Shown: piece after piece, positions 6,648 through 26,745 of the stretch
Position numbering within the stretch: position 1 is the first letter of the stretch
Layout of the letters: the number at the start of each line of letters is the position of its first letter
Source: a virus
IMG/VR virus record: IMGVR_UViG_3300036814_000330
Coordinates: 1-29,854 of that record
DNA: 29,854 bases
Reading direction: 5' to 3' (one strand)
Notes under the pieces: model-generated
Databases searched by the model: none
What the model was told of the DNA's origin: nothing
Seen by the model: only the letters and a program-made list of their open reading frames with translations
Translations under genes and position numbers: made by a program

Positions 6648-6994
6648 TTTTTTTGGTCGTCTCCCACTTCGTTCATATCACCCGCCAAATGGAGTTCCGC
6701 CATAACCCTGCTGAGATCTATCACCTTGACAGATTTCAGTGAATCAATCGAATCCTCATGCACAGGGAGATCCCACGACCAAGCGGTTGTTCCGTGTGCC
6801 AGCCGAACCGTCCGAGAGATCTCTGCCATTTGCTGAATATCTGTGTCGGGATCCAGCGGAGCCAACCGCTGTCGGAGTAGACGGGTCACGATCCACGGCT
6901 GCTCGCCGTAGAACTCCCACCAGCTTCCATCCTTCCAAGTTCGCCGATATATCGGGATGCCCCCGGATGAAGTCCCGATCATTTTTAAATCCAT
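6545..6994 (-). CDS. Tail assembly chaperone, zero-frame product (gpG-type)
   Basis: 149 residues from an ATG at 6994 with AGGGAA just upstream. The N-terminus (MDLKMIGTSSGGIPIYRR) leads into a helical, tryptophan-containing body. Codons 115-116 (AAA AAA) form the slip site; after it the zero frame adds a 33-residue arginine/serine-rich tail (VSSGRWWRRILSLVFGWTST...) before stopping, while the -1 frame adds 71 residues. It sits between the tail-tube gene and the tape measure, exactly where gpG/gpGT pairs are found. Sequence identity of these chaperones is usually low, so the assignment is from context and architecture. Confidence 0.82.
   Translation of the reverse strand: MDLKMIGTSSGGIPIYRRTWKDGSWWEFYGEQPWIVTRLLRQRLAPLDPDTDIQQMAEISRTVRLAHGTTAWSWDLPVHEDSIDSLKSVKVIDLSRVMAELHLAGDMNEVGDDQKKVSSGRWWRRILSLVFGWTSTTTSRKLGSGSLSR
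6647..6653 (-). promoter_or_regulatory. Programmed -1 ribosomal frameshift site A AAA AAA
   Basis: On the coding strand GAC CAA AAA AAA GTC contains a run of eight A (plus-strand T at 6647-6654). In the zero frame it reads as the slippery heptamer A AAA AAA at codons 114-116, and a -1 slip joins the 6432-6647 frame. I did not find a convincing stimulatory hairpin or pseudoknot directly downstream. Transcript slippage on the A run is another way to reach the same product. Confidence 0.82.
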
Positions 6995-7015
6995 ACGTTC
7001 CCTACTTTCGTTGGA

Positions 7016-7453
7016 TTATGTAAATGAGCCTATGGTAATCGTGCCTTGAACCAGCAAGGTCGCCCTGAATCCAATCAAATCACCGAGCCGTCCCGGGTAT
7101 TCGAGTTCGTCAAGCTTGGTTTCTGCGCTGATTTTCTCAGCACTTGAAGCGTTCCCTTTGGGTCCATAGTTGATCGTCGATTCTTGATCGGCTGATCGGA
7201 GAGCAGCGAGAGCTGAGAGCAGGACTTTCGATCCTGTCGTCGCTGTATCGTCGTACCAGCCCTCAACCGTGACCACCACGTTCTCTAAGGCTGACGCATG
7301 TTTCCGCCCGTTGTCACCAATCGCTGTAGCGTCGTGGTGTTCCACGCGCCCCGGCAGCCCCGAGACGGACGTAATTCCCGTGATCTGTTGCAACGTCCCT
7401 GCGGAGTCGTCGATAGCAAAGTAAAGATCTTTGCCTGGATACCTGTTTACCAT
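7016..7453 (-). CDS. Major tail tube protein
   Basis: 145 residues from an ATG at 7453 preceded by GAGGT at 5-base spacing. The sequence has the alternating short-strand pattern of tube proteins: KDLYFAIDDSAGTLQQITGI, then SGLPGRVEHHDATAIGDNG (the usual segment where the tube protein defines a helix and loop), KHASALENVVVTVEGWYDD, and a final strand GFRATLLVQGTITIGSF. It polymerises into the hollow tube around the tape measure. It lies between the tail-completion gene and the chaperone pair, the standard order. I see no Ig-like C-terminal domain, so this is the minimal version. Confidence 0.82.
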   Translation of the reverse strand: MVNRYPGKDLYFAIDDSAGTLQQITGITSVSGLPGRVEHHDATAIGDNGRKHASALENVVVTVEGWYDDTATTGSKVLLSALAALRSADQESTINYGPKGNASSAEKISAETKLDELEYPGRLGDLIGFRATLLVQGTITIGSFT

Positions 7454-7455
7454 AT

Positions 7456-7938
7456 CTACCTCGTTATTTTCGCAGCCACGTTGATCCCCGCATCAGTAAC
7501 GACTGCTTGTATTTCGCTTTGCTTTTCTTTCAGCGTATCCACATGGTACGGGTTCGCTTTCGTCCCGGGATGCTTCACCACTTTTGCAAAGACTAACTTG
7601 TTGCCAATAGTGAACGCCAGAGCCTTTGCATTTACGGGACGGATTTCGTGGGGCTTCGTTCCAAGCCTCACGAATGACCCGTAAAAATCGCCAGCCGGAG
7701 TTCTTGCACCCTGACGGATCTCTAATTTTTGATCCGCCGGACTACCTGTGATTTGAAACCGGGTTGAATTTGCTAGCTTCCCGGCAGCTCGTGGAGTGTT
7801 TTGTTTTAGCGCGGGAACCATCATCTTCCCGATCTTCCGCAACGCCTTATTGAGCTCGCCCTTTATGAGAGTCGCTGCCCCTTCAAGATTTGTGGCAAGA
7901 TCCCTTGCCCCTTCAAATTCAAACTTCTGTTGAGTCAT
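7456..7938 (-). CDS. HK97 gp10-like tail completion / minor tail protein
   Basis: 160 residues from an ATG at 7938 that overlaps the preceding stop (ATGA). A longer frame reaches 7980 but would overlap the upstream gene further, and MTQQKFEFEGARDLATNLEG is the natural family N-terminus. Family signs are a helical start, LNKALRKIGKMMVPALKQNTP followed by GKLANSTRF, and the segment FYGSFVRLGTKPHEIRPVNAKAL with TKANPYHVDTL near the end (the usual 'E-x-GT ... P.pfl' region). Such proteins join the tail end to the head-tail connector. Confidence 0.82.
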   Translation of the reverse strand: MTQQKFEFEGARDLATNLEGAATLIKGELNKALRKIGKMMVPALKQNTPRAAGKLANSTRFQITGSPADQKLEIRQGARTPAGDFYGSFVRLGTKPHEIRPVNAKALAFTIGNKLVFAKVVKHPGTKANPYHVDTLKEKQSEIQAVVTDAGINVAAKITR

Positions 7939-8468
7939 CCCCACGACCCCGATCCATCCCAGATAGTTGCGCCGTCCCACCGGAAGATTACACCCGCCTG
8001 AGTTTCAGCGAGGTAAACGGTCGATAGTTCAGCGACGGTGATCGTTACGATCTGCCTGAAATAGACCCCTGACCCGAACCTCCATTCGCTCGATTCCGGA
8101 ACCGTGTCGATCCGACTGTCAATGATTCCTACAAAATCGTCGAGGTCTGGATACTTATCAAAATGACCCTCGACGGCATCGGCCAGAACCGTTAGTGCTG
8201 CTCGAGTCGCCAGAGCATCCGTAACGTACCGCTGGAATATGTGAACCTCCACGCTGTAATCGTCTCGGCGGACGTAAGACTTCTTAGCGTCGGCGATGTC
8301 GATCTGCCCGGATCCCGGGCCACCCGTAGTCCCTTTGAGCAGGATCGCATAGTTGGCTTTTCCGACAGCGAGAGTCCGGAAATCATCCTCTGACGAATTT
8401 ACGGCGTCGAATTGAGACATCAACTTGAGCAGGGTGTGAGCTTGAGCCTGGACGCTTTGGTAACTCAT
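7935..8468 (-). CDS. Tail terminator/connector-like protein, copy 2
   Basis: 177 residues from an ATG at 8468 (ATGA overlap with the gene before it). It matches the neighbouring 151-residue protein along its length: SYQSVQAQAHTLLKLMSQFD against TYATIQTAALAVLRKLTEFD, NSSEDDFRTLAVGKANYAILL against NSHENDYRPLSVGKQYHVVL, then a shared valine-rich strand (YSVEVHIFQRYV / VNIEIFVMYEKD) and H-x-DKYPDLDDFVG / HLDKWPNLDQTVG. This copy carries an extra C-terminal tail of about 25 residues (AETQAGVIFRWDGATIWDG). Position between connector and gp10-like genes suggests a neck or tail-terminator role; this is inferred. Confidence 0.72.
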   Translation of the reverse strand: MSYQSVQAQAHTLLKLMSQFDAVNSSEDDFRTLAVGKANYAILLKGTTGGPGSGQIDIADAKKSYVRRDDYSVEVHIFQRYVTDALATRAALTVLADAVEGHFDKYPDLDDFVGIIDSRIDTVPESSEWRFGSGVYFRQIVTITVAELSTVYLAETQAGVIFRWDGATIWDGSGSWG

Positions 8469-9844: not shown

Positions 9845-10588
9845 CTAATCCGGGTCAGCCCCGGTGTACGCAAGTGCGCTGCTAGCCCGTCGTTGATTTA
9901 GTAGTAACTCGGCGACCTTGAAATCGAACGGAGTGTCGATATCAATCGCGAGCTCGTCCGGAACCAGATAACCGTAAGTATCCTCTGAATAATTCCCACC
10001 GACAAGTTTTGGGTTCTCGTCTCGGAAATCCGCAAAAGATCCCCAGATGAGATTTCCAGCCGGGACATATACACGAGGGAGAGCGTTCGATTCCTCCCCT
10101 GCTCCAAATTCAGTAAACCGCCGAAGCCCTCGAGTCGGATCGTCGTTATCGAGCGGAACAGCCATGTGGTGAGGGTGATCGGCGAGCTTGAGCATTACGA
10201 GCTTGCTCGGCCTCTCACGCTCGTAGACTTCCGCCGTCGCCTGAACTAGCTCCGCCGTGGTCGTTGGAACGCAGGCCGTAAGTAAACAGACCGCCGTGTC
10301 GCCCCGGTAATACCTGTTCATCTTCTGAACAACATCGACGGCTGGATCGTCGGCGCTTACCTCGTCGCCGGAGAGCTCCGCAGAACGCTTCCACACCCGC
10401 ACACCTACGGGCGCAAGGTCGAGGATCTCGTCGTCCTCTGACGTCAGAATGATCTCATCGAAAACGCCCGACTCAAGCGCAGCAAGCATCACCCAGAGAA
10501 CGACCGGCTTCCCGGCGATCATGCGTTTATTTTTGCCCGGCACTCGCTTCGAGTTACCCCGGGCTGGAATGATTGCGATTGAGCGCAT
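9845..10588 (-). CDS. CMP-nonulosonate (sialic/pseudaminic acid) cytidylyltransferase
   Basis: 247 residues from an ATG at 10588. It has the signature of the NeuA/PseF/KdsB nucleotidyltransferase family: AIIPARGNSKRVPGKN at 5-20 (CTP-binding loop), GKPVVLWVMLAALESGVFDE, ILTSEDDEI at 48-56, RSAELSGDEVSADDPAV, and AIDIDTPFDFKVAELLL at 214-230 (the metal-binding IDTP-x-D region). The CLLTACVPTT stretch replaces the QPTSPLR of classical NeuA and, with PAGNLIWGSFADF, looks closer to pseudaminic-acid enzymes (PseF). The reaction joins CTP and a nine-carbon sugar to give a CMP-sugar donor. Finding it inside the head operon beside a Rossmann protein of the MptE/GT42 type suggests glycan decoration of the virion or host surface. 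The exact sugar is open. Confidence 0.85.
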   Translation of the reverse strand: MRSIAIIPARGNSKRVPGKNKRMIAGKPVVLWVMLAALESGVFDEIILTSEDDEILDLAPVGVRVWKRSAELSGDEVSADDPAVDVVQKMNRYYRGDTAVCLLTACVPTTTAELVQATAEVYERERPSKLVMLKLADHPHHMAVPLDNDDPTRGLRRFTEFGAGEESNALPRVYVPAGNLIWGSFADFRDENPKLVGGNYSEDTYGYLVPDELAIDIDTPFDFKVAELLLNQRRASSALAYTGADPD

Positions 10589-10590
10589 CG

Positions 10591-11037
10591 CTAAGAGGCG
10601 ACGGGCTTGGCTGTGTCGTCGGATACTTCCTCTACGGGATCCGACGACGCAGGTGAGCCAGCGGTTAGATCTACCGGCTCTGACTCGACGACCTTCGCTG
10701 TGCTGAGCCTCTCGATCAGGCTGCCGTGAGTCCCCTTAGTGTGCTTATCCAGATTCGATTGCGTGGCGTAATCCTTACCACAGCCCTCGACCTCACAGGC
10801 GAAGCGTGATGGCTCCGGTTCTGGAACGTCGGACTCGTGGAGGAATTCTGCCGGGACGTCCTCAAGAGCGACCTCGACGATGTGCTTCGAGTATTTACTC
10901 AGAAGCCCAGCGGATATCCCGGCAGTAAATGACTGGGGGTCGTCAGTGATGTCAACGTAATAAGGAGCCTCGTTGATCGGCTCGACTCGAACATGGAACG
11001 GACCGAGGTTATCCTCGTGCTTTTTCAAATAGATCAT
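10591..11037 (-). CDS. C2H2 zinc-finger protein in virion operon
   Basis: 148 residues from an ATG at 11037 (ATGA overlap with the Rossmann gene). Residues 1-65 look like a small folded domain (IYLKKHEDNLGPFHVRVEP, then PYYVDITDDPQSFTAG). Residues 79-104 hold a complete classical C2H2 finger: C81-x4-C86, Y90, L96, H99-x4-H104, with the canonical spacing C-x3-Y-x5-L-x2-H. The C-terminal third is acidic and proline/serine-rich, likely disordered. C2H2 fingers are common in eukaryotes and rare in phages. It could bind DNA, but it could equally be a structural zinc knuckle in a virion protein. The N-terminal family is unknown to me. Confidence 0.68.
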   Translation of the reverse strand: MIYLKKHEDNLGPFHVRVEPINEAPYYVDITDDPQSFTAGISAGLLSKYSKHIVEVALEDVPAEFLHESDVPEPEPSRFACEVEGCGKDYATQSNLDKHTKGTHGSLIERLSTAKVVESEPVDLTAGSPASSDPVEEVSDDTAKPVAS

Positions 11038-11957
11038 AACGTTACTAACTCCGATTTCGGTTCTTTGATTTCTATGTCCGTCGGCATCACCATATCAGGG
11101 AGCCGAGCCTCCACAAGATCCGTGATTCCCATAGTTGATGCCCAGTGCATTGTTTCCCTAACTAGGCCGACAGTCGCTTGCATCGTAGCGTTCGCTGCCG
11201 AGACCTTATCCCGCTTCGTCGCCAGGTACTTATTCAGCGCTGCTTTCGCTGCGAGATCCGGGATCTGCATACGGCTAACGATATCGCTCGCTGTCTCGAA
11301 CGATGCGACCGCTCGGACGAGTTGACTCCACGCCCTCACGTATTCGTCCTTGTGTCCACGTAGACGCTTCTGAGCCATATCCCGGAGCCGAGTTACCTCC
11401 GGAGCTTTCCGCCCGTACAAAGGGCCGAACAGGAGCGGAGATGAATCAGGCCATTCGACCGTGATCCCCTTCGACATAGCAACGCCGATCCAGAACTCAA
11501 GACAAGATTTTTCCTCTTGGTATTCCGTCTCCATCGAAAGATCGAGGCCGAGCAAATGAATCTCGTTGTAGCCCTGATAGATAGCGTATGCGAGCATGTA
11601 CGATGGCGTAGACCTGAAATACGGCGGATGATCGTCGCCCCACAGCCACACCTTCTCAAGCGGGTATCGCTGGCTCGACGGAACCTCCGGGTGCTTATCG
11701 ATCATCATTACCGGGATCTTTGTCTCCCGGAGCCACTGGCCATGCTCGCCGGAAGCGAGCTCTGGACGTTGGCGATCCTTGTACTCGGAGTCGCTACCGT
11801 CGATCATATCCAACTCGTGAATCTGAAACCACAGATGGGCTTCGTCAATAAACGAATGGGCGTCGTTCATCCCCCAGATCTCGACGTTCGGAGGAAGCTC
11901 CGGAGCATCGAGTCTGGATGATGGTGCGAAACCGACGATTGCGACTGCTTTGTGCAT
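11034..11957 (-). CDS. MptE/GT42-like Rossmann protein, putative glycan enzyme
   Basis: The frame reaches a TTG at 11981, but I choose the ATG at 11957 (307 residues) because the nucleotide-binding strand HKAVAIVGFAPSSRLD begins there and GGGGG lies 10 bases upstream. Signs of the MptE-like (DUF115) / GT42 sialyltransferase fold are IVGFAPSS near 7-14, VEIWGMNDA at 25-33, and RSTPSYMLAYAIYQGY followed by NEIHLLGLDLS at 115-141; Campylobacter GT42 enzymes have a comparable R-x-T-S-x-x-Y-M ... GYKEIYLSGID. Then EFWIGVAMSKGITVEWP and a long helical C-terminal part (186-307) absent from GT42. The next genes include a CMP-sugar synthetase, which would make the donor. The transferase role is an inference; I could not place the GT42 catalytic histidine. 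Confidence 0.6.
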   Translation of the reverse strand: MHKAVAIVGFAPSSRLDAPELPPNVEIWGMNDAHSFIDEAHLWFQIHELDMIDGSDSEYKDRQRPELASGEHGQWLRETKIPVMMIDKHPEVPSSQRYPLEKVWLWGDDHPPYFRSTPSYMLAYAIYQGYNEIHLLGLDLSMETEYQEEKSCLEFWIGVAMSKGITVEWPDSSPLLFGPLYGRKAPEVTRLRDMAQKRLRGHKDEYVRAWSQLVRAVASFETASDIVSRMQIPDLAAKAALNKYLATKRDKVSAANATMQATVGLVRETMHWASTMGITDLVEARLPDMVMPTDIEIKEPKSELVTL

Positions 11958-11986
11958 GATGAATTGACCCCCGTCAATCAAACTAA

Positions 11987-12475
11987 TTACGCTGCGTGAG
12001 TTATCACAGCAGAGATTGCGAGCGTTCCGTTCGGCAGTACGACAACTAGGTACGCTGTGAACGCTCCAGCATCAGTAATGTTGATATCAACGTCACCGTC
12101 CGCTTCAGAGATCATCAAGCCTGACAGGTTCGCTACCTGCTCGATCAATGAGCCATCCGTTCCGATAGCTACACCGCCATCGTGAGCGGTCGCCATAGCA
12201 TCAAGCCCTGCAGCGTCAGTGGCGAAATACCACGGGAGCGCAACCGGCGTAGCCATAGCTGTTCCCGCTGCGTCGTTGAACTGAACGGTGACGTTGATTA
12301 CGTTGGTTGATTCCGCACCGACAACCATGACCGCCGCTGCGACCTGGTTGTCGAGGAGGTTTATCTCCGCCGGAGTCGCCGTTACTTCGACGGCACTCGT
12401 GCCGAGTTTCAGCGTGTCAGCTTCCAACACCTGAAACGAGGTAGTTCCTCGATGTCGATCTACGGGCTTTGCCAT
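11987..12475 (-). CDS. Head decoration / fibre-like virion protein
   Basis: 162 residues from an ATG at 12475. The N-terminus holds VTATPAEINLLDNQ, a segment repeated in many phage head fibres and decoration proteins (T-A-x-E-L/I-N-x-L-D). The C-terminal beta domain (VINVTVQFNDAAGTAMATPV, then LPWYFATDAAGLD and a final TAYLVVVLPNGTLAISAVIT) is widespread in phage proteins encoded beside the major capsid gene. The likely role is an exposed ornament on the capsid. No membrane or signal segment is seen. Confidence 0.65.
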   Translation of the reverse strand: MAKPVDRHRGTTSFQVLEADTLKLGTSAVEVTATPAEINLLDNQVAAAVMVVGAESTNVINVTVQFNDAAGTAMATPVALPWYFATDAAGLDAMATAHDGGVAIGTDGSLIEQVANLSGLMISEADGDVDINITDAGAFTAYLVVVLPNGTLAISAVITHAA

Positions 12476-12493: not shown

Positions 12494-12880
12494 CTACGCC
12501 CGGACCATCTGCTTCGGTGGTGCGAGGAGCCGTTTATATTTTTCGTCCTTGAGGAGTTCTTCCATCGGCGTTTGACCGGAATAATAGACCGCTTTATTAC
12601 GGGCTAAAATCGCAGCCTTGCGAGGATGGTTCTCCTCAACGATCCAAAGATCCCCGCCATAAAATTCGGGGTTGCAAGAGCGCTCATCCCAGCACCCTTG
12701 CGATTTCATCCAGTCGGCAGCGTCGCGGGGATAGCTGGCCTTCGCTGCTTTCGCAGCATTGCTAGTCCCTCGAGGTTCTTCAAGAACCTTGAAGGTCTGA
12801 CCATGACTCCCAGCTCTGGGAGCGAATTGCCAGCCATCCCACACGAAGCGCCTATTTACTCTGTAGACCTCAAAACCCAT
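12494..12880 (-). CDS. Conserved phage hypothetical protein near capsid gene
   Basis: 128 residues, ATG at 12880. It begins MGFEVYRVNRRFVWDGWQFA, then shows a central charged helix region (NAAKAAKASYPRDAADWMKS), a WDERSCNPEFYGGDLWIVEE segment and a basic C-terminus (DEKYKRLLAPPKQMVRA). Tryptophan-rich N-terminus and basic tail suggest a small nucleic-acid or capsid-associated protein. I recognise no family. It sits between the major capsid gene and the decoration-like gene with 18-29 base gaps, so it is co-transcribed with them. Confidence 0.6.
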   Translation of the reverse strand: MGFEVYRVNRRFVWDGWQFAPRAGSHGQTFKVLEEPRGTSNAAKAAKASYPRDAADWMKSQGCWDERSCNPEFYGGDLWIVEENHPRKAAILARNKAVYYSGQTPMEELLKDEKYKRLLAPPKQMVRA

Positions 12881-12909: not shown

Positions 12910-13878
12910 TTAGGCTGCGGTATCTAAGAACAGGTAGCCGGAAGCCGACGACGTGACCTTCGGAATAGCGTGAGTCAAAACTCGGCTAATCTCGGATCTC
13001 GTCTGTTCTTCACGGTACTGTTGAACCGCCCACGGAATGTTGCCAACTTCGTCCCACATAAACATGTAGGCCGCAGCTGCAGTCTCAAGAGCCGGAGCAT
13101 CGATCGCCGGAATGAGCAGACACGAGTCCGTCCACACGTTGGCGCCGACGTATGTCTGACCCTCTTTAGCCGTGTTCTTTGACGTCCGACCAACCACGAT
13201 TTCCTTGACCCCAAGAGCAGCAGCTACTAGCTCCTCGGTCATAATCCCGGCCTGAGTGTGCTTGTACTTATCAGTGATAAGCGGGTGCTCTTTCAGGTCG
13301 TTCCAGGTATCGATTCCCATGATGGCTCGGTCAGGCTCAACGCCGGTGTCTTGTCGCACCGTTCCTTTTGCCGTATCGAAGTCACCGATTGGATCGGAGT
13401 TCGCAAAGTCGCTCCACTGGCTTGTGCCTGAGAGCGTGTTATCCGTCCCCCATTTCGAGGCGACGAAAAGCCCTGCTGCGGTCAGCAGTTCCAACTCCAT
13501 CTCGATAAGGTTCGTCAGGAATTTTACGTCCTGCTCGATAAGCGATTCTGGAGTCTGCGAGCTCGCGGCCACAGGGTCGCTCGTCGGAGTCTCGAAACCG
13601 TATTCATCCGTGTCGAACGTTGCGGTTGCTACACCGTGGTCGACTCGTTTGTAGGTTCCTGCTGGCGATCGCTTTGCGCCACCAGCTTGTTCAAATGCAC
13701 GGAACCAGTAGTCCTTCGTCCAAATGAAATATGTGCCGGACTTCTCATCCGACGGCACGACAGGTGCTACAAGATCCCAAATAAATTGGGGGTTCTTGTA
13801 TCCGATGCTCATGTTAGTGAGAATCGGATTTACCGGACGGACGTCGTTCTGAGTCGGCAATGCGTATTTACGTTGCAT
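12910..13878 (-). CDS. Major capsid protein
   Basis: 322 residues from an ATG at 13878 with a strong ribosome site (AAGGA, 4 bases upstream). HK97-fold features are the N-arm QNDVRPVNPILTNMSIGYKN, the E-loop region SGTYFIWTKDYWFRAFEQAG, a spine helix (EQDVKFLTNLIEMELELLTA), the P-domain NLKEHPLITDKYKH in the form NDLKEHPLITDKYKH, and an A-domain ending VQQYREEQTRSEISRVLTHA with IPKVTSSASGYLF at the C-terminus. This C-terminal pattern is typical of major capsid proteins that carry no separate N-terminal scaffold domain, in agreement with a protease/scaffold gene upstream. Order protease-scaffold, decoration, capsid is standard. Confidence 0.9.
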   Translation of the reverse strand: MQRKYALPTQNDVRPVNPILTNMSIGYKNPQFIWDLVAPVVPSDEKSGTYFIWTKDYWFRAFEQAGGAKRSPAGTYKRVDHGVATATFDTDEYGFETPTSDPVAASSQTPESLIEQDVKFLTNLIEMELELLTAAGLFVASKWGTDNTLSGTSQWSDFANSDPIGDFDTAKGTVRQDTGVEPDRAIMGIDTWNDLKEHPLITDKYKHTQAGIMTEELVAAALGVKEIVVGRTSKNTAKEGQTYVGANVWTDSCLLIPAIDAPALETAAAAYMFMWDEVGNIPWAVQQYREEQTRSEISRVLTHAIPKVTSSASGYLFLDTAA

Positions 13879-13967: not shown

Positions 13968-14384
13968 TTACTCGGTGTCGTGTGGTAACGGAGTGATGAA
14001 GTTTACGGCGATATCGATGATATCTCCGTCGGCTCCAGCGGCAAGTGCTCGACCAATGACGGCACGATCAGCAGACGCTTTATCCGCTTCGAGTGCGCCA
14101 GAGATCACTTCTCCGTCGTTGTTGAGAACTAGGTAAGCGCCCTGTGCAACTGTTCCGCCACATTCGGCTCGGCAGATACCAACCATGACAACTTCCGCTG
14201 CCTTGCCTGCTGCATTAGGGTCGTTTTGCAGAATACCAATACCAGCCTGAGCGAACGCTGCTGCGTTCGAGTCGGTGATCTTGGCAACAGATCGGTCGCC
14301 CGTTAGGTAGACCCCTGCGTACTGCTCGGCGGACAGATCCGCCGCGGCTACTGCGCCCGGTAGGAGGATTTGCTGATCGCTCAT
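13968..14384 (-). CDS. Capsid decoration protein (DUF2190-like)
   Basis: 138 residues from an ATG at 14384 overlapping the protease stop (ATGA). The sequence shows the small beta-tulip style pattern of these proteins: SAEQYAGVYLTGDRSVAKIT, AAFAQAGIGILQNDPNAAGK, EVVMVGICRAECGGTVAQGA, YLVLNNDGEVISG, ADRAVIGRALAAGADGDIID, and a last strand IAVNFITPLP. Glycines at strand turns and 'G.a...a..G..i.v' repeats match DUF2190/gpD-like stabilising proteins that trimerise on the capsid surface. Its place just before the capsid gene fits. Confidence 0.75.
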   Translation of the reverse strand: MSDQQILLPGAVAAADLSAEQYAGVYLTGDRSVAKITDSNAAAFAQAGIGILQNDPNAAGKAAEVVMVGICRAECGGTVAQGAYLVLNNDGEVISGALEADKASADRAVIGRALAAGADGDIIDIAVNFITPLPHDTE

Positions 14385-15813: not shown

Positions 15814-17952
15814 TTACGTGATCCTCTGCCAATTTCCTCTGCCCTCGAAGTCCGCCTCAATGTAACATCGGCAATTGCCGAGACACGAGACGTTCCCCGC
15901 CGGTACGGTCGGCATCGAATCCCATCCGTCCGTGTAAACCCTTGCGAGCCCCGGACACCCAAATGTCGACCGCCCTCGGTCGTCCTCACAATGATCTGCT
16001 CCATCGTCCAGCACCCAGCGCGTTTGAATCGACGGAACCCCGAGACGTTTCCGCTCGGCGTTCTCGACTTTCCCCGCTGCTGCCTGAGTCTCGAATATAG
16101 CCACCTGCGCCTGACCCGCCGACTGAGCGATCCGGCTACGGCGCCCGGCGAATACATCGTCGAGGAACCCTTTGCGAGCTTCCACAGGGAGCTTGCGGAG
16201 CTCCGTTGTCGTCGAGGCGTATCGTTCCTTGAGCCCCGGGATTAGCTTCGTCTCAATATCGGCCTCTGCCTGACGAACCAAGCTGGCCACGGTTTTCTGT
16301 ACCTCAGGCGACGAGGTTCGCTTCCCGAGAGTCTCGCCCAGGCCGAGCCCAGACGCCTCGCCGATACGCTCCCTTGCCAGAAGCCGGAGATCCGCCGACA
16401 GATTCGTTAGCCGACGGTTGACCATCGCATCAATGTCCGTCGCCGTCCGGCCCGGGAGCGCAGCGAGCCTAGTCGTCTCCGCTGCCCACTTGTCATAAAC
16501 CCCGACGAGATCCTTCTGATACTGATTCGTGAACCGCTCGTAGATCCCAGTGATTCCCCGCAGATCTTGGCCGGCTGCAGCGTCGTACTTTCGGATCTCA
16601 TCTCGCATCGCTGCGAGAGTGGTCCCTCCGAACACATCGCCGACCATAGATTCGACGGTTCGATCGTCGTCGCCCACACCGTCCGGAAGCTGCTCGAGGC
16701 CGAGCTCGTCCCGTAAGACCTGCTCGTCCTCACGAGTCGGAGTAAAGAGTTTCGACTGTGCGCCCTTCGTGAACAATTCAACAACGGCTGCGACGTCCAT
16801 CTTTCCCGGCTTCGCCCACACGACCTTCGGCATCCCGGTCGTTCCCGGGAAGCTGTTGAATCGCATCAGGTACGGGACAAGCTGGTAGTTCACCTGCTCC
16901 ATGATCTCGTCTTGAATCGACTCAAGCGCCAGCGAGAAGAAATCCTGCGACCCCTCGACGAGAGCCTGTGTCCCGACGTTCTGCATACCGAGCGTCAGGA
17001 ACTGAGCGAACAGACGCATCAAAACTTGCTTCTCGTAGTCCTGAATAATCTGGCGGATCTTGAGTTGCTTGCCCCCGACATACGGGCTCAATGACATACC
17101 GTTAGGAAGCATGACGTAAAGAGCTTTGTCGTTCCGGAGCCCCTCCATCTGCTTCTTCAATTCCGTTAGCTCGGCGCTGTCGATCAGCCCGACTCCCTCG
17201 GGGAGCGTGAGGACTGGCGTCCCGCCAATGTCTCGCTCGATACCGATACCCTCAAGAGCCCGGTAGTTCTTCATGTATTTGAACGGCATGTAAAGCGAGC
17301 GGAGGTACGACTTGCCCTGCGGGTTGCCCTTCCTCGCTGCGAGCGTTACGTGTAGGCACTTGTCGAGCGGGATCGCTACCTCTCGACGAGGAGCACCACC
17401 GCGAAAACCACCCTGAATAAAATGAGTCACAGTGTCCGGGTGTTGATTATCGAGGATCCCCCAACGGCGAAGCGTCTCCTGGCCTCGAGGTTCCATGTTG
17501 CGGATCCACATTCGACCGTCGCTGCGCTTCTCAAGAACGATCTCTGAAACAGCGAATCCGAACTCGATAGACTCGAGCGTGTCTCGGAGCCACTTCCGGA
17601 GAGACTGGCGATACATCTGCTCGAGGTTGTCCTGAACGAAATCGGCTGCGATCTTATCTGCCACATCGTCGGACGCTGGCTCGACGGATATCTCCGCCTT
17701 GAGCATCGGCATCTTCACGGCCTCGAGCATCGTCGAGATCGTTACCTCGTCCCGAGCCTCCAGGACGTACTTAGCTTCCTTATTCCACGGCTTGAGCTCG
17801 AGGAAGTATTCCTCGCCCATGTACCCGGCCCACATCGAGAGCCCACTGTCGCCGTAGATCTGAGTCGCATTAGCCCCGGTCGTAATCTCCGGAACGTCCT
17901 CCGGAGCACGACCCTCGACTTCGCCAGATCTCTGTCCATTGTCTACAACCAT
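15814..17952 (-). CDS. Portal protein fused to Mu gpF-like head protein
   Basis: 712 residues from an ATG at 17952 with AAGGA 7 bases upstream; it overlaps the terminase stop by 10 bases. Residues about 1-440 are a Mu gp29-like (DUF935) portal: KPWNKEAKYVLEARDEVTIS, RKWLRDTLESIEFGFAVSEI, KGNPQGKSYLRSLYMPFKYM, ERDIGGTPVLTLP, and a long helical C-terminal part of the portal. Residues about 490-712 carry a Mu gpF / SPP1 gp7-like minor head domain ending in the cysteine-rich signature TRWVLDDGADHCEDDRG ... NVSCLGNCRCYIE (C655, C690, C694, C696), as in MuF proteins. Portal forms the ring through which DNA is packed and leaves; gpF-like proteins help assembly and may enter the cell. The two are separate genes in most phages. 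Confidence 0.88.
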   Translation of the reverse strand: MVVDNGQRSGEVEGRAPEDVPEITTGANATQIYGDSGLSMWAGYMGEEYFLELKPWNKEAKYVLEARDEVTISTMLEAVKMPMLKAEISVEPASDDVADKIAADFVQDNLEQMYRQSLRKWLRDTLESIEFGFAVSEIVLEKRSDGRMWIRNMEPRGQETLRRWGILDNQHPDTVTHFIQGGFRGGAPRREVAIPLDKCLHVTLAARKGNPQGKSYLRSLYMPFKYMKNYRALEGIGIERDIGGTPVLTLPEGVGLIDSAELTELKKQMEGLRNDKALYVMLPNGMSLSPYVGGKQLKIRQIIQDYEKQVLMRLFAQFLTLGMQNVGTQALVEGSQDFFSLALESIQDEIMEQVNYQLVPYLMRFNSFPGTTGMPKVVWAKPGKMDVAAVVELFTKGAQSKLFTPTREDEQVLRDELGLEQLPDGVGDDDRTVESMVGDVFGGTTLAAMRDEIRKYDAAAGQDLRGITGIYERFTNQYQKDLVGVYDKWAAETTRLAALPGRTATDIDAMVNRRLTNLSADLRLLARERIGEASGLGLGETLGKRTSSPEVQKTVASLVRQAEADIETKLIPGLKERYASTTTELRKLPVEARKGFLDDVFAGRRSRIAQSAGQAQVAIFETQAAAGKVENAERKRLGVPSIQTRWVLDDGADHCEDDRGRSTFGCPGLARVYTDGWDSMPTVPAGNVSCLGNCRCYIEADFEGRGNWQRIT

Positions 17953-19331
17953 GCGGATTCCTTTGCTGGAACTTCAACCGAAATTACTGTATCACCCGTC
18001 CGAGCGAGAATGAGCCCCGCCATCGTCGTCGTGTCGACCTGATCGTCGTGAGCTCCCGCAGGGAACTTCGAGTGCTCGTCCAAGAAATCAGCGAGGAACG
18101 GAGCGCCCTCCGGGAGCAACATCATACCGTTCTCAATATACGGAGTCGTGGCGTGAGCCCTGACGACCTTCGAGCCGATCGGCGTATACAACTTGACCGG
18201 AACCCCTGTCTTTTGGAACTCTTGAAACAATGATATCCCGCTCGCCTTGTCCTCAATGTGAACCACATCAGGACCCCACATATCGTACTGTGCCTTGAAC
18301 AATCTTTTCAACTCTGGGAACGGAACCCGCCACCCTCGAATGTCCCGAAGATAGCAAATCCCACCGGGGCCTCGTGTCCAGGTAGCGCAGACCGACGGGT
18401 CGTTTTCCTGCTTCTCTTTGTACGCCGTATCCCATAACTGGAACGTTCGGTATCTGTTGTTGAAGTCGAACGTCTCTGGGTTGTAATACTGCCACTTGTT
18501 CAGCGGGAATATTGCACCCTCCTCGTCGCTCGGATCCTGCTGATAGAGAGCGATCCAGTCCCGGATACCAACCTCCGCTTTCGTCGAGAGAAGTGCCGGG
18601 AGATCGTAGCGTTCAGGCCAGAGAGGATCGCCGATCGCTCGCCCGAGCGGGTCGTCGTCCTCCGTAGCTAGCGCAGGGAACTTGACCTCGACCCAATCGT
18701 CCTTGTATTCGTCGTCCTCGTCCTGACCGTCGAGAAGCCTGCCAGCGAGGTCGTCGTGATGCCAGCGGGTTTGACAAATGATTATTGCCCCGTCCGGCTC
18801 GAGCCTCGTCCTGGCCGTCGAGGTGTACCAGTCCCACACCGCCTGCCGTCTGGTCGCCGACTCCGCCTCCGCTCGATCCTTTATCGGGTCGTCGATAATA
18901 ATCAGATCTCCGCCGTGTCCGGTGATTCCTGAACCGACACCGGCAGCGATCATCCCGCCGCGAGATCCCGCTACGTCCCACATGGCAGCGGAGCGAGAGT
19001 CAGCCGCGAGCCGAGTGTTGGGAAATACCTTCTCGTATTTATCGGACTGGATAGCGTTACGCACACGACGAGAGAACGAGACTGCCAGCTTCGAGGCGTA
19101 GGAGGCAAGGATCAATCGCATGTTCGGATTGCGCCCTAGAGCGAACGCAGGGAGCAGCTCAGACACATGGACGGACTTCGAGTGGCGTGGCGGAGTCTCG
19201 ATAATCAGGCGCTTGATATCGCCCTCTAAAACACCTTCGAGAATGTTCGCCAGCATCAGTGTGTACGGCGACGTTATGTACCCCGGATAGATGTACTCAC
19301 CGAACCCCGTTAGTGTGGCCTCCGCTGCCAT
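17943..19331 (-). CDS. terL: Terminase large subunit
   Basis: The frame is open from 19484, but that start would overlap the upstream gene by 188 bases. The ATG at 19331 (AGG 7 bases upstream, 35-base overlap) gives 462 residues and the usual family N-terminus (MAAEATLTGFGEYIYPGY). The ATPase has a Walker A-like TPPRHSKS at 46-53, Walker B LIIIDDPI at 143-150, and a coupling motif QTRWHHDD at 187-194. The nuclease has acidic residues in QLWDTAY (D301), HIEDKASG (E360, D361) and GAHDDQVD (D429, D430). The protein drives DNA into the prohead and cuts it. It leads into the portal gene. I call it TerL with high confidence; the packaging type (cos or pac) is not decided by this sequence. Confidence 0.94.
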   Translation of the reverse strand: MAAEATLTGFGEYIYPGYITSPYTLMLANILEGVLEGDIKRLIIETPPRHSKSVHVSELLPAFALGRNPNMRLILASYASKLAVSFSRRVRNAIQSDKYEKVFPNTRLAADSRSAAMWDVAGSRGGMIAAGVGSGITGHGGDLIIIDDPIKDRAEAESATRRQAVWDWYTSTARTRLEPDGAIIICQTRWHHDDLAGRLLDGQDEDDEYKDDWVEVKFPALATEDDDPLGRAIGDPLWPERYDLPALLSTKAEVGIRDWIALYQQDPSDEEGAIFPLNKWQYYNPETFDFNNRYRTFQLWDTAYKEKQENDPSVCATWTRGPGGICYLRDIRGWRVPFPELKRLFKAQYDMWGPDVVHIEDKASGISLFQEFQKTGVPVKLYTPIGSKVVRAHATTPYIENGMMLLPEGAPFLADFLDEHSKFPAGAHDDQVDTTTMAGLILARTGDTVISVEVPAKESAWL

Positions 19332-19974
19332 TCGAGAGCCTAGTAAGCGAGCCCTTACCGTTGATTCGGTATCGTGAGAGATCTTCGCCTTCGGGGATTC
19401 CGGCATCGTCAGCAAGGATCCGTTTGAGTAACTGTGCGTTGTCAAGGTCTTCATCGCTCCTGATGCCGGTTGTCGCTTCCACATGCAGGGACAGGTCCCT
19501 GGAGGTCGTGGGTCGTGCCTTCACGCCGAATTCTTCACGGAGGCTTTCAGCGCCTATTTCTAGCGCACGGGACGCCTGTGGCAATAGCTTTCGGGCTTCG
19601 GTATTGCTGAGTGATTTCAGGTCAGCACGTTGGATAATCACCATTGCCTGATTCATCATCTGTGTAAGATTCCGCACCCGGATCCGAGCGTTCTCCTCGG
19701 CGGTTTGGATCATCGCTTGACGAGCTTGGCTGGCTAGATATTCGTCCCATGCCAGTGCTCGTGCTAGCCATCCCCACTTCGCTGCCCACGTCTGGTAGCG
19801 CCCCGTCGCTCGGCGCACACTCTCCAGCGGCTCACCTGCAACGATCCGCCACGTCTGGTCGACCGTCCGGTCTGGCCCGAGTTGCAAATAGACGTTGAAC
19901 GCTGCCCACGGCTTCGAGCCTTCGGAGGGCATACGTTCCCATTTGTCGGGATCTTTGGATACTGCCATAGTCAT
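19297..19974 (-). CDS. Small terminase-like DNA-recognition protein
   Basis: 225 residues from an ATG at 19974 (ATGA overlap with the HNH-like gene). Residues about 20-85 resemble the HTH part of small terminases and related phage proteins: PWAAFNVYLQLGPDRTVDQT, then TGRYQTWAAKWGWLARALAW with a DEYL end (pattern W-x-A-F-x-x-Y ... W-x-x-R-x-x-x-(W/Y)-D-x-Y-L). The middle is a long helical stretch (ARIRVRNLTQMMNQAMVIIQ) likely to drive oligomerisation, and the C-terminus is polar and disordered. It stands immediately before the large terminase. Small terminases bind the packaging site and pass DNA to TerL. Confidence 0.72.
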   Translation of the reverse strand: MTMAVSKDPDKWERMPSEGSKPWAAFNVYLQLGPDRTVDQTWRIVAGEPLESVRRATGRYQTWAAKWGWLARALAWDEYLASQARQAMIQTAEENARIRVRNLTQMMNQAMVIIQRADLKSLSNTEARKLLPQASRALEIGAESLREEFGVKARPTTSRDLSLHVEATTGIRSDEDLDNAQLLKRILADDAGIPEGEDLSRYRINGKGSLTRLSNGSGGHTNGVR

Positions 19975-20570
19975 GATTTCGATACCTTCTTATTCTTTAT
20001 GGTATCGGATTGGAGGGTAGCCCTCATTGCTCCACCCTTTGGGTCTTGTTTGTCCCATCGGGAATGACAACCCTTACAAAGCCATCTGACTCTGAGCGGC
20101 TCTGCGTAGTTGTAGTGTGCCGCTTCAATCCTTGCCGATTTCCCGCATTCTTCGCAGACAGATGGCCTGACCATTCGCCCTGTTTGGATAGCATATGCGA
20201 CTCGCCTTTGCGCTCTTGTCGCTTCTTTTGTTCCGACCCATCGCTTCTTGATGCCTGTTGATTGAGCCACAACCTTGCATCTGTACGAGCAGAACTGAGC
20301 AGATAGGTACGCAAGAGGTCCGAATCGTTTACCGCAACTGGCACAATCCTTGAACGTCTGAGGACGGTCTGCCCTTCTGCATTCTGATGAGCAATACGGT
20401 CGCTGTTTAGCAATGAACGATGTATCGCATCGCCTACATTTTTGCGCTTTGATTCCGTGGCAATCTTTGCAAGCGGAAGAGTATCCATTAGTCCGTGTTG
20501 TGCGGTGGAATCGGTCAAGCGGAAGAACCTTTTCGCACTTGCTGCACTTCTTCGAATGTAAGTGTTTCAT
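19971..20570 (-). CDS. Cysteine-rich HNH-like protein next to terminase
   Basis: 199 residues from an ATG at 20570; the only in-frame start after an upstream TAA. It has eight cysteine pairs: 9/12, 34/37, 45/48, 60/64, 76/79, 94/98, 139/142 and 165/168, enough for about four zinc sites. The last region (VCEECGKSARIEAAHYNYAE, then VRWLCKGCHSRWD) has the ββα-metal HNH look with H152 and C-x2-CH at the end. Many cos phages encode an HNH nuclease next to their terminase and need it for packaging. The multiple zinc ribbons in front are an unusual extension. Whether it still cuts DNA is open. The start overlaps the methyltransferase end by 56 bases. Confidence 0.72.
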   Translation of the reverse strand: MKHLHSKKCSKCEKVLPLDRFHRTTRTNGYSSACKDCHGIKAQKCRRCDTSFIAKQRPYCSSECRRADRPQTFKDCASCGKRFGPLAYLSAQFCSYRCKVVAQSTGIKKRWVGTKEATRAQRRVAYAIQTGRMVRPSVCEECGKSARIEAAHYNYAEPLRVRWLCKGCHSRWDKQDPKGGAMRATLQSDTIKNKKVSKS

Positions 20571-21297
20571 CTCCTGATGATAGCATTACACCATCACTAG
20601 AGCCAACATAATTGATGTACCTGTTTACGATCACGTCGCAGTAGATCGGGTCGAGTTCTAAGCCGTAGCATTTCCTGCCGGTGCGCTCTGCTGCGATGAG
20701 TGTCGAGCCTGAGCCGAGGAACAGGTCGAGTACAACGTCAGACTTTTTTGTGCAGGCTGTCACATGCTCCACAACCATTTTCACAGGCTTAGGAGTCGGG
20801 TGTCCTACGTTGCTATCCTCGTGGCTCTCTTTGTCGTGAGTATAAATATAGCAATCGTCTAAATAATTCTCAGTCGAGGGCTTTGGTTTCCCTTTCGTAA
20901 AAATAAGGCATGGTTCTGTTTTGTTTATCCATGCACCGTGAGGGTAGGAAATACGGTTCGATTTATACATCGAAACCAGTCTGAAGAACTCCCATTCACC
21001 ATCAAAACTCAACAGGTGGAACTTCCGAGGGCTTTGCCACGCCAGTAAAAAACAATCTACTGCGCTTGCTGTGTACGCGACACTCTGCCACGCTTGGTTG
21101 AAACTTGCCATAGAGTCATCACTAAGGGCGTCGTTTTGAATCTCCCCGCCAGCCTCACTTGTAAACCCAATCCCATAAGGCGGATCAGTGAACACCATGT
21201 CTGCCTTCGCACCGCCCATCAAGTACGCCACGCTCTCAGCGTCCGTAGAGTCGCCGCACAGCAAGCGGTGGTCGGATTTGAGTTGTAAGTTACCCAC
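20515..21297 (-). CDS. Beta-class adenine DNA methyltransferase (DPPYG), second copy
   Basis: The frame runs back to 21465, but the first 56 residues lie inside the previous gene in another frame; the GTG at 21297 within GTGGGTAA gives 260 residues and mirrors the start of the gene before it. Motif order is beta class: TDPPYG at 37-42, HPTPKPVKM at 166-174, then DLFLGSGST at 191-199 and ELDPIYCD at 214-221. Such enzymes methylate adenine N6; the HPT-x-KP motif supports adenine. The first 40 residues (GNLQLKSDHRLLCGDSTDAE...) nearly equal those of the upstream methyltransferase. The end overlaps the HNH-like gene. It may guard the genome against restriction. Confidence 0.88.
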   Translation of the reverse strand: MGNLQLKSDHRLLCGDSTDAESVAYLMGGAKADMVFTDPPYGIGFTSEAGGEIQNDALSDDSMASFNQAWQSVAYTASAVDCFLLAWQSPRKFHLLSFDGEWEFFRLVSMYKSNRISYPHGAWINKTEPCLIFTKGKPKPSTENYLDDCYIYTHDKESHEDSNVGHPTPKPVKMVVEHVTACTKKSDVVLDLFLGSGSTLIAAERTGRKCYGLELDPIYCDVIVNRYINYVGSSDGVMLSSGDETLTFEEVQQVRKGSSA

Positions 21298-22060
21298 TGA
21301 TTCTGACCGCCTTCTTGCCAGTGTGTTCCTCGTATCTGCGGACTGATACGTCGCAGTAAATTGGGTCGAGTTCGATACCAAAACACCGTCGCCCTGTTCG
21401 TTCGGCGGCAATGATCGTCGTGCCAGTCCCTGCGAATGGTTCATATACAGACTTCGACTTATCACATAGCGTTTGCATTACCCACAACGGAAGATGAATG
21501 GGCATTGCTGCTGCGTGTATCTTTGACGATTCGTTTGAATTGTTTGGCGGGGCTGTATACACGTTCGATACAGTTCCGCGCCACGATGACAAAGGGACGC
21601 TCCGAGTGGCGTTATCCATCCCCATTATCACTAACCACTCATATTCCGAGTTCATTACGCTTTCTGCCATGGCTGGCTGTGACCTTTGTTTATTCCACAC
21701 CGCCACATCCACAAGCCTTTCAGACCGTTCACTTACCCACTTGAACATATTCTGTTTATTCCCTGCGAGTAATTGCAAATTCACGACCCACGCATCGCTA
21801 ACCACTGACTGACTAGCGTTCCACCATCCATCCATCAACTCAGCCCAATTTTCAGGAGTGTCATCATATTGGTCGTAAGCATTCTTCTTTTCCGACATTG
21901 CCTTATTACCAGATAGAGAGACGGACTTCCCTAGTGCGTAAGGCGGCGACGTAAAGCATATGTCCGCCTTTGCTCCGTCCATCAAGTACGCCACTGATTC
22001 AGCGTCCGTACTATCCCCACAGAGTAGACGGTGATCGGATTTCAGTGTCAAATTACCCAC
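21290..22060 (-). CDS. Beta-class DNA methyltransferase (TSPPY), first copy
   Basis: 256 residues from a GTG at 22060 within the same GTGGGTAA junction as its follower. TSPPY at 37-41 is typical of N4-cytosine methyltransferases (some adenine enzymes also carry it), FAGTGTTIIAAERTG at 209-223 is the AdoMet motif, and ELDPIYCD at 230-237 follows. The middle target-recognition part (NAYDQYDDTPENWAELMDGW onwards) is unrelated to the second copy. The N-terminal 40 residues and the AAERTGR(R/K)C(F/Y)G(I/L)ELDPIYCD region are shared. It lies between the ParB-like gene and the second methyltransferase. In related phages the ParB and methyltransferase parts are one fused protein. Confidence 0.86.
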   Translation of the reverse strand: MGNLTLKSDHRLLCGDSTDAESVAYLMDGAKADICFTSPPYALGKSVSLSGNKAMSEKKNAYDQYDDTPENWAELMDGWWNASQSVVSDAWVVNLQLLAGNKQNMFKWVSERSERLVDVAVWNKQRSQPAMAESVMNSEYEWLVIMGMDNATRSVPLSSWRGTVSNVYTAPPNNSNESSKIHAAAMPIHLPLWVMQTLCDKSKSVYEPFAGTGTTIIAAERTGRRCFGIELDPIYCDVSVRRYEEHTGKKAVRISG

Positions 22061-26136: not shown

Positions 26137-26745
26137 TTACAACCATTTGACCCATCTGTCTTTGGGGGCTGTCTTGATTCGTTGCATGTTGAGGGCATCC
26201 CTTGATTCAGAAACGTGTATTCCGTTGCGCCTTGCATGCCGATAGGCGAACCGTCGATGCCTCACTTTCCCGTCTAGCCCCACGAGGTGAACTTCTGCTT
26301 GCGTGGCCCCCATGTGGGTGAAGCTAGCAGCACGATAAATACCACCGGAATGCCCCTGCTCGGGGTCACTGAACGCCACCACGCATTTGATGCCTTGCTT
26401 CTTCAATGCTTTGTTGCACATGGATATGAATTTGGTCAGAGGTAAATCATCCCTGCGTGGCTCAACCCTGCATAGTCGTTTTAGTTCAACCAGTTGATCT
26501 ATTCGCAACTCTCGCCCCGATTCACGAGCAATGAATTCAGCTTGATAGGGATTCACCCCGATACCGTAATCAGCAACGGCGTATAAAACATCACCGAACA
26601 TATCTTTAGTTTCAATGAGCGTGTCTGGTGTCGATGGTAGTCGTATTCCAAAAAACTGATTCTGTCCTGTCGGGACACGTTCAGAGTAGTGCCATCGTTC
26701 GATGAACGGGCGTGCTGTTTCGAGATTGATTTCAGTTGCGTTCAC
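26137..26745 (-). CDS. Mom-like DNA adenine modification protein
   Basis: 202 residues from a GTG at 26745 with GGGAG upstream. The signature is that of the Mom family of GNAT-fold proteins, which in phage Mu convert adenine in DNA to a methylcarbamoyl form that blocks restriction: WHYSERVPTG early (18-27), DQLVELKRLCRVEP (ELKRLC at 87-92), FISMCNKALKKQG, and AFSDPEQGHSGGIYRAASFT (124-143, the 'vsfaD ... GH-x-G-x-IY-A-x-x-F' core), ending in DRWVKWL. No Com gene is recognised, but this gene sits behind the helicase and the window also encodes two methyltransferases. Mom-like proteins with varied substrates exist, so the modification is an inference. Confidence 0.76.
   Translation of the reverse strand: MNATEINLETARPFIERWHYSERVPTGQNQFFGIRLPSTPDTLIETKDMFGDVLYAVADYGIGVNPYQAEFIARESGRELRIDQLVELKRLCRVEPRRDDLPLTKFISMCNKALKKQGIKCVVAFSDPEQGHSGGIYRAASFTHMGATQAEVHLVGLDGKVRHRRFAYRHARRNGIHVSESRDALNMQRIKTAPKDRWVKWL

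Follow-up and report, generated by a model that had tools for sequence, protein, structure and literature searches.

The genes for a cytidylyltransferase and a GT42-like Rossmann protein in the head operon of the phage studied here form a conserved unit, and this unit is the pair of cytidylyltransferase and proposed transferase, not a trio with the C2H2 finger gene that lies between them. We lean slightly towards the view that this two-enzyme system, co-expressed with the capsid genes, glycosylates the phage's own particle with a nonulosonic acid, a reading for which we infer catalysis, donor, acceptor and benefit. The wider proposition that widespread, nearly uncultured tailed phages make sialic-acid-type sugars and attach them to a capsid surface protein via a virus-specific GT42-related transferase family appears finely poised to us, with a slight tilt towards doubt.

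Gene order and the cytidylyltransferase

The window, i.e. the whole stretch of DNA that was analysed, comprises 29,854 bases of an IMG/VR virus record. The following features are given in the direction of transcription:

17943..19484, minus strand: terminase large subunit (phrog_38, E 1e-112)
15814..17952, minus strand: portal protein (phrog_113, E 2e-56)
13968..14384, minus strand: scaffold-like protein (head-module context)
12910..13878, minus strand: major capsid protein (phrog_1005 major head protein, E 1.6e-69), alternative candidate acceptor
12494..12880, minus strand: 128-aa protein between the major capsid protein and the position -1 protein (no Pfam/PHROG match)
11987..12475, minus strand: 162-aa protein directly upstream of the transferase (position -1), candidate acceptor (decoration-like head protein)
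11034..11957, minus strand: GT42-like Rossmann protein with C-terminal helical tail, 307 aa, proposed nonulosonic acid transferase (AlphaFold/Foldseek, core profile)
10591..11037, minus strand: 148-aa protein with one C2H2 finger, same transcript, outside the conserved unit (PF00096 below cut-off)
9845..10588, minus strand: predicted CMP-nonulosonate cytidylyltransferase (NeuA/PseF type), 247 aa (PF02348, NeuA structure 9ftb)
7456..7980, minus strand: tail completion/Neck1 protein (phrog_5, E 5e-10)

The preliminary description had placed three adjacent genes between the capsid region and the head-tail connector, and all of these ORFs are indeed found there. The head-operon setting is equally clear, with terminase, portal, scaffold-like and major capsid genes on one side and the Neck1/tail completion gene on the other. 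In full, the minus-strand order runs from terminase and portal through a 443-aa protein, the scaffold-like protein, the major capsid protein and two small proteins to the three genes, which are followed by adaptor-like and neck genes and then by the tail genes. The three ORFs, all on the minus strand, show tight translational coupling: the TGA of the Rossmann gene and the ATG of the C2H2 gene share the sequence ATGA, and the cytidylyltransferase starts 2 nt past the C2H2 stop. GGGGGT is located 5' of the ATG of the Rossmann ORF, for which an alternative TTG start is possible at 11981. A scan for promoters and terminators gave no signal above chance. An assembly chimera is unlikely because the same three genes are present in the same order and with 100% protein identity in two other IMG/VR contigs. 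Elsewhere in the window, a Mom-family DNA modification protein (26137-26745; PF25680, E 8e-23) and two N6/N4 DNA methylases (20515-21465 and 21290-22060) are encoded, and their predicted functions suggest that the phage also modifies its own DNA.

Judged from its sequence, the product of 9845-10588 is almost certainly a CMP-nonulosonate (sialic-acid-type) cytidylyltransferase. Its PF02348 score of 60 bits is well over the cut-off of 22.6, and its residues 3-230 align to NeuA structure 9ftb (E 2.6e-15), in full agreement with the original assignment. The signatures noted at the outset, ARGNSKRVPGKN and DIDTP, are both present, and the N-terminal ARGxSKRxPxKN and C-terminal DIDT motifs are intact as in NeuA structures. 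The best NCBIfam model is that of PseF (TIGR03584, E 4e-31), and with 108.2 bits the protein stays under the equivalog cut-off of 205.7, so that the assignment stays at the level of a nonulosonate. A scan with a diverse cytidylyltransferase alignment returned no conserved stretch.

The C2H2 protein contains the pattern C-x2-5-C-x12-H-x3-5-H (CEVEGCGKDYATQSNLDKHTKGTH) and reaches 19.6 bits on PF00096 vs a cut-off of 25.2. No relatives were found in phage records or, with the threshold relaxed to E 1, among the related loci. The notion of the trio as a conserved unit was rejected for this lack of relatives in related loci: the C2H2 gene is private to the lineage of the window. The preliminary description had itself named rarity of the trio in other phage genomes as evidence against its proposal, and in the survey the trio is rare and the pair recurs. 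We treat the C2H2 protein as a passenger or a lineage-specific partner. In a phage that also encodes NeuB, cytidylyltransferase and transferase, a head-region protein (L052:1000-1569) ends in a Cys/His finger-like motif; it has no sequence similarity to the C2H2 protein of the window.

The Rossmann protein and its viral family

As a single query, the Rossmann protein of the window finds no match in Pfam, PHROGs, NCBIfam or PDB. An AlphaFold model based on 32 window and IMG/VR sequences (pLDDT 83.8) was compared with the PDB by Foldseek. Ranks 1-7 are all chains of GT42 sialyltransferases, with probability 1.0 and E values from 1.6e-4 to 2.8e-3. The rank below them has an E value of 0.12, and no match outside GT42 falls below E 0.1; most of the GT42 structures matched contain CMP or an analogue of a CMP-sugar. 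The long C-terminal helical tail contributes to the low whole-chain TM-scores against GT42 (0.29-0.34 for the query, at an rmsd of about 8 A). A core-only profile of 32 members, searched against 177,635 PDB sequences, gave nine matches up to E 10, and ranks 1-8 are again GT42 proteins, with E values (0.12-0.34) that are not significant alone. PF06002 (GT42) has no match in the transferase family, and a GT42 sequence match at E < 1e-3 was not reached. As fold search and core profile both single out GT42, we favor the reading that the protein works like GT42 and do not claim GT42 membership itself. On the basis of the predicted structure, a GT42-superfamily fold is very probable.

The protein had initially been described as GT42/MptE-like, and it is GT42-like by predicted structure, with GT42 nearer than MptE by fold. 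The viral fold search did return MptE-like and DUF115 proteins (E 1e-3 to 5e-3), and thiamin pyrophosphokinase, an MptE-type fold, appears in the Foldseek search of the PDB (E 0.35). GT42 matches better, and MptE was rejected as the nearest fold. PF01973 (MptE-like/DUF115/Maf) is matched by one of 33 family members at E 0.13, which misses the cut-off, and the window protein has no match to it.

Tyr146 is conserved in 31 of the 32 rows of the core alignment, and the profile alignment puts it on CstII Tyr162, the catalytic tyrosine. S/N116-S/T117 is conserved ahead of the YM helix. The general base of GT42 is His188 (CstII literature numbering); past residue 146, the 32-row core alignment has no column with a His majority, and the sole mostly conserved His is H47 (27/32 rows). 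The missing base His, the non-significant sequence similarity and the low TM-scores count against the proposed glycosylation of the particle.

A distant relative of the window protein is encoded by Microcystis phage Mvi-Yong1342-1. With this relative as the second row of the query alignment 52 viral loci were retrieved, and a tighter alignment retrieved 362, such that the transferase family has no fewer than 362 loci in IMG/VR. Among bacteria and archaea (about 85,000 genomes) it is present in at least two loci, a lower bound because it stems from one scan with a single degenerate pattern. The Microcystis phage is the only match among 50,697 records of the phage collection, which explains why the family went unseen. 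The conserved core motifs are GxAPSS, DDPSWEIWGLN, RWFEIH, YFTNSxSxMIALAI, EIxLYGVDMA, EYxxQRPSxE and SDLLK. Inteins often interrupt active sites, and one locus (L047:5902-7674; also L048) features an intein-like insertion inside EYxxQRPS, which in L047 matches LAGLIDADG weakly (E 7e-4). Two further loci contain tandem diverged transferase copies (L034:5917-6597 and 6837-7424; L054:5998-6837 and 6834-7313), which look as if they serve two acceptors or linkages.

Nonulosonate genes in family-bearing contigs

From the retrieval of 52 loci, 50 IMG/VR contigs were scanned over their full records for PF02348 and PF03102 (NeuB), which were found in 23/50 and 16/50 of them, respectively. A second set of 38 contigs, picked by the transferase alone, repeated this result, with cytidylyltransferase and NeuB in 19/38 each. 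The control consisted of 50 viral contigs drawn by random 15-mer, mostly longer ones, with a total of 2.14 Mb vs 2.10 Mb in both test sets together, and contained neither cytidylyltransferase (0/50) nor NeuB (0/50); chance co-occurrence was rejected on these grounds. The transferase family was also without a match in the control contigs, although that scan had no positive control and only suggests rarity. When both sets are combined, family-bearing contigs of at least 12 kb contain cytidylyltransferase in 36/64 and NeuB in 32/64 cases (32/54 and 31/54 after clustering at 70% identity). At a length of at least 30 kb, each of the two genes is present in 18 of 25 contigs and either of them in 20. 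Where both occur, they are separated by a median of 2.2 kb. About 40% of the longer family-bearing contigs contain neither gene; most contigs are fragments. As the control did not mirror the test contigs in host or phage clade, clade membership may explain part of the association; the association-positive contigs span several capsid protein families. Enrichment against the control in two sets supports the functional pairing of the transferase with a CMP-sugar synthetase that had been proposed from the window, and it is likely that the cytidylyltransferase and the GT42-like protein act together on a CMP-nonulosonate.

Some of the relatives feature much larger sets of sugar genes. In many contigs, NeuB, SDR and cytidylyltransferase genes lie between terminase and portal genes. 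Around the head genes, loci L253-L261 and L266 mostly have the order terminase, NeuB, SDR, cytidylyltransferase, in many cases an FkbM methyltransferase, portal, protease, major capsid, Ser/Thr-rich protein and transferase. Locus L272 encodes NeuC (334 bits, cut-off 235.9) and a WbuX amidotransferase (266 bits, cut-off 203.2) together with a LegC-like aminotransferase, a PseB-like dehydratase, a NeuB-like synthase, a NeuD-like acetyltransferase, a PtmA-like SDR and a cytidylyltransferase. L264 and L270 resemble it, and a near-complete nonulosonic acid pathway is present in the phage late region of all three (L272:4624-15169). A sulfotransferase-like protein (family scan on the L264 member) is encoded near this pathway and, together with the amidotransferase, may further modify the sugar. 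In L038, NeuB, NeuC (above cut-off) and cytidylyltransferase are arranged around the transferase gene. Transketolase-like proteins are encoded near NeuB and cytidylyltransferase in L256 (6723-8036, family scan) and L266 (5886-7214).

The window resembles a smaller type, seen also in the L012-L028 lineage, in which the cytidylyltransferase adjoins the transferase and the contig lacks NeuB. NeuB (PF03102) was not found in the window, and as terminase overlaps portal, the site at which related phages carry this gene is unoccupied. Cellular contamination of IMG/VR was rejected for the key contigs, in which the sugar genes sit among terminase, portal and capsid genes. A NeuB match from the phage collection (FPLJ01000048.1, L273) proved to be a Moritella viscosa capsule-locus contig filed there; phage isolates therefore hardly carry NeuB.

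Proposed target of the sugar and comparison with known systems

In a synteny sample of 132 loci (90 sequence clusters), the transferase at position 0 is surrounded by slots for portal (-4), protease (-3), major capsid (-2), a Ser/Thr-rich protein (-1), head-tail adaptor (+2) and head closure (+3); in 38 loci, the -2 slot is occupied by a major-capsid family. The late, capsid-module location described for the window is thus conserved over many phages. The protein at position -1 has a median Ser+Thr content of 23.4% vs 12-17% at the other flanking positions, a comparison whose p-value takes no account of relatedness, and reads as a beta-rich, decoration-like sequence; a single-sequence model of the protein encoded at 11987-12475 reached pLDDT 41 and did not resolve the fold. 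The constant placement of an enzyme gene next to a single structural gene hints at an enzyme and its acceptor. The case for the virion head as the target of the sugar is, to our mind, evenly balanced, and the position -1 protein is put forward only tentatively as the acceptor.

According to this proposal, the cytidylyltransferase would couple CTP to a nonulosonic acid of the sialic-, legionaminic- or pseudaminic-type, yielding CMP-nonulosonate. The GT42-like protein would accept the latter as donor. The sugar would then probably pass to Ser/Thr of a protein on the head surface, for which the best candidates are the product of 11987-12475 and the major capsid protein (12910-13878). The free sugar of the window phage may come from the host or be made by genes beyond the fragment, and many relatives carry their own synthase and further pathway genes.

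The late-operon position also fits a moron gene. During infection, the pair might add a nonulosonic acid to LPS, capsule or teichoic acid on the host surface, e.g. for superinfection block or release of progeny from receptors, and its place among the capsid genes would then reflect late expression only. Bacterial GT42 enzymes work on surface lipooligosaccharide, and prophage epaA/epaB convert pseudaminic acid in the A. baumannii capsule (PMC12053666). A late moron would have no need of a slot that stays fixed between major capsid and head-tail adaptor over many lineages with different capsid families; the -1 neighbor is unusually Ser/Thr-rich, and the transferase family was found in just two loci of cellular genomes (a lower bound); modification of the host is therefore rather unlikely. 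It is more doubtful still that the Rossmann protein is GT42-like with another donor, or an MptE/thiamin-pyrophosphokinase-like nucleotide enzyme, and that the link to NeuA/NeuB merely reflects shared phage lineages. The MptE-like and DUF115 matches described above, the one PF01973 match (E 0.13), the non-conserved base His and the many family contigs with no nonulosonate gene are in keeping with this idea, but GT42 fits better than MptE-type folds (thiamin pyrophosphokinase E 0.35), and the association survives clustering at 70% identity (cytidylyltransferase 32/54) and several capsid types. Transfer of the sugar onto phage DNA or a small molecule, in which the C2H2 protein would serve as nucleic-acid adaptor, would accord with the Mom-family protein, the two DNA methylases and the translational coupling of the C2H2 gene to both enzymes, yet is highly improbable given that this gene is missing from all other family loci and that the relatives hold the capsid-module position without obvious DNA-modification neighbors.

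Glycosylation of the particle thus stays our preferred reading. If it is true, nonulosonic acids join the short list of sugars made and placed on particles by bacterial viruses, and a family found in hundreds of environmental phage contigs and absent from Pfam/PHROGs gains a testable function, with Microcystis phage Mvi-Yong1342-1 as an isolate that carries it. The system would then be the phage equivalent of the sialylation of flagellin and cell surfaces, serving for shielding or mimicry, and sialylated virions would have a bearing on mucus/lectin binding, host range and enzyme tools for protein nonulosonylation. One Azotobacter phage has a gene annotated as a sialyltransferase (PMC12772287). 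The literature searched, which excluded subscription journals and preprints, yielded no account of a nonulosonate pathway linked to capsid genes in phages; a B. megaterium phage paper and a gut phage review matched by their reference lists alone. The novelty is therefore provisional.

Among known systems, GT42 (C. jejuni CstII; Pasteurella multocida 9c08) resembles the window family in predicted core fold, in the motif S/T-x-x-YM-x-x-x-A-I-x-x-G-Y/F-x-E-I-x-L-x-G-x-D, followed by the Tyr aligned to CstII Tyr162, and in CMP-nonulosonate as the likely donor. The window family differs in that it has no conserved His in the region bearing the GT42 base, has its own invariant E-Y-x-x-Q-R-P-S motif and C-terminal helical tail, and is virus-restricted, located beside capsid genes and missed by Pfam PF06002. 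Like the bacterial NeuA/PseF synthetases, the cytidylyltransferase is a typical PF02348 protein whose motifs are intact, but its gene resides in a capsid operon and not in a capsule or flagellar locus. Phage-encoded glycosyltransferases for virion proteins have a precedent in mycobacteriophages, whose capsids and tail tubes they glycosylate, according to PMC12619734, citing Freeman 2023. In the phages studied here, the predicted donor is a CMP-nonulosonate and relatives encode the whole sugar pathway, a combination for which no report was found. Maf proteins have three domains, whereas the window family has a single core domain, is not a member by sequence (best PF01973 E 0.13) and has no flagellar genes. 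Maf proteins (DUF115/MptE-like) offer a works-like analogy, as they use a CMP-sugar to attach a nonulosonate to Ser/Thr residues of a surface protein that assembles itself, Neu5Ac or Kdo being placed on flagellin in the cytoplasm before assembly, as summarized in PMC7591256, citing Khairnar 2020.
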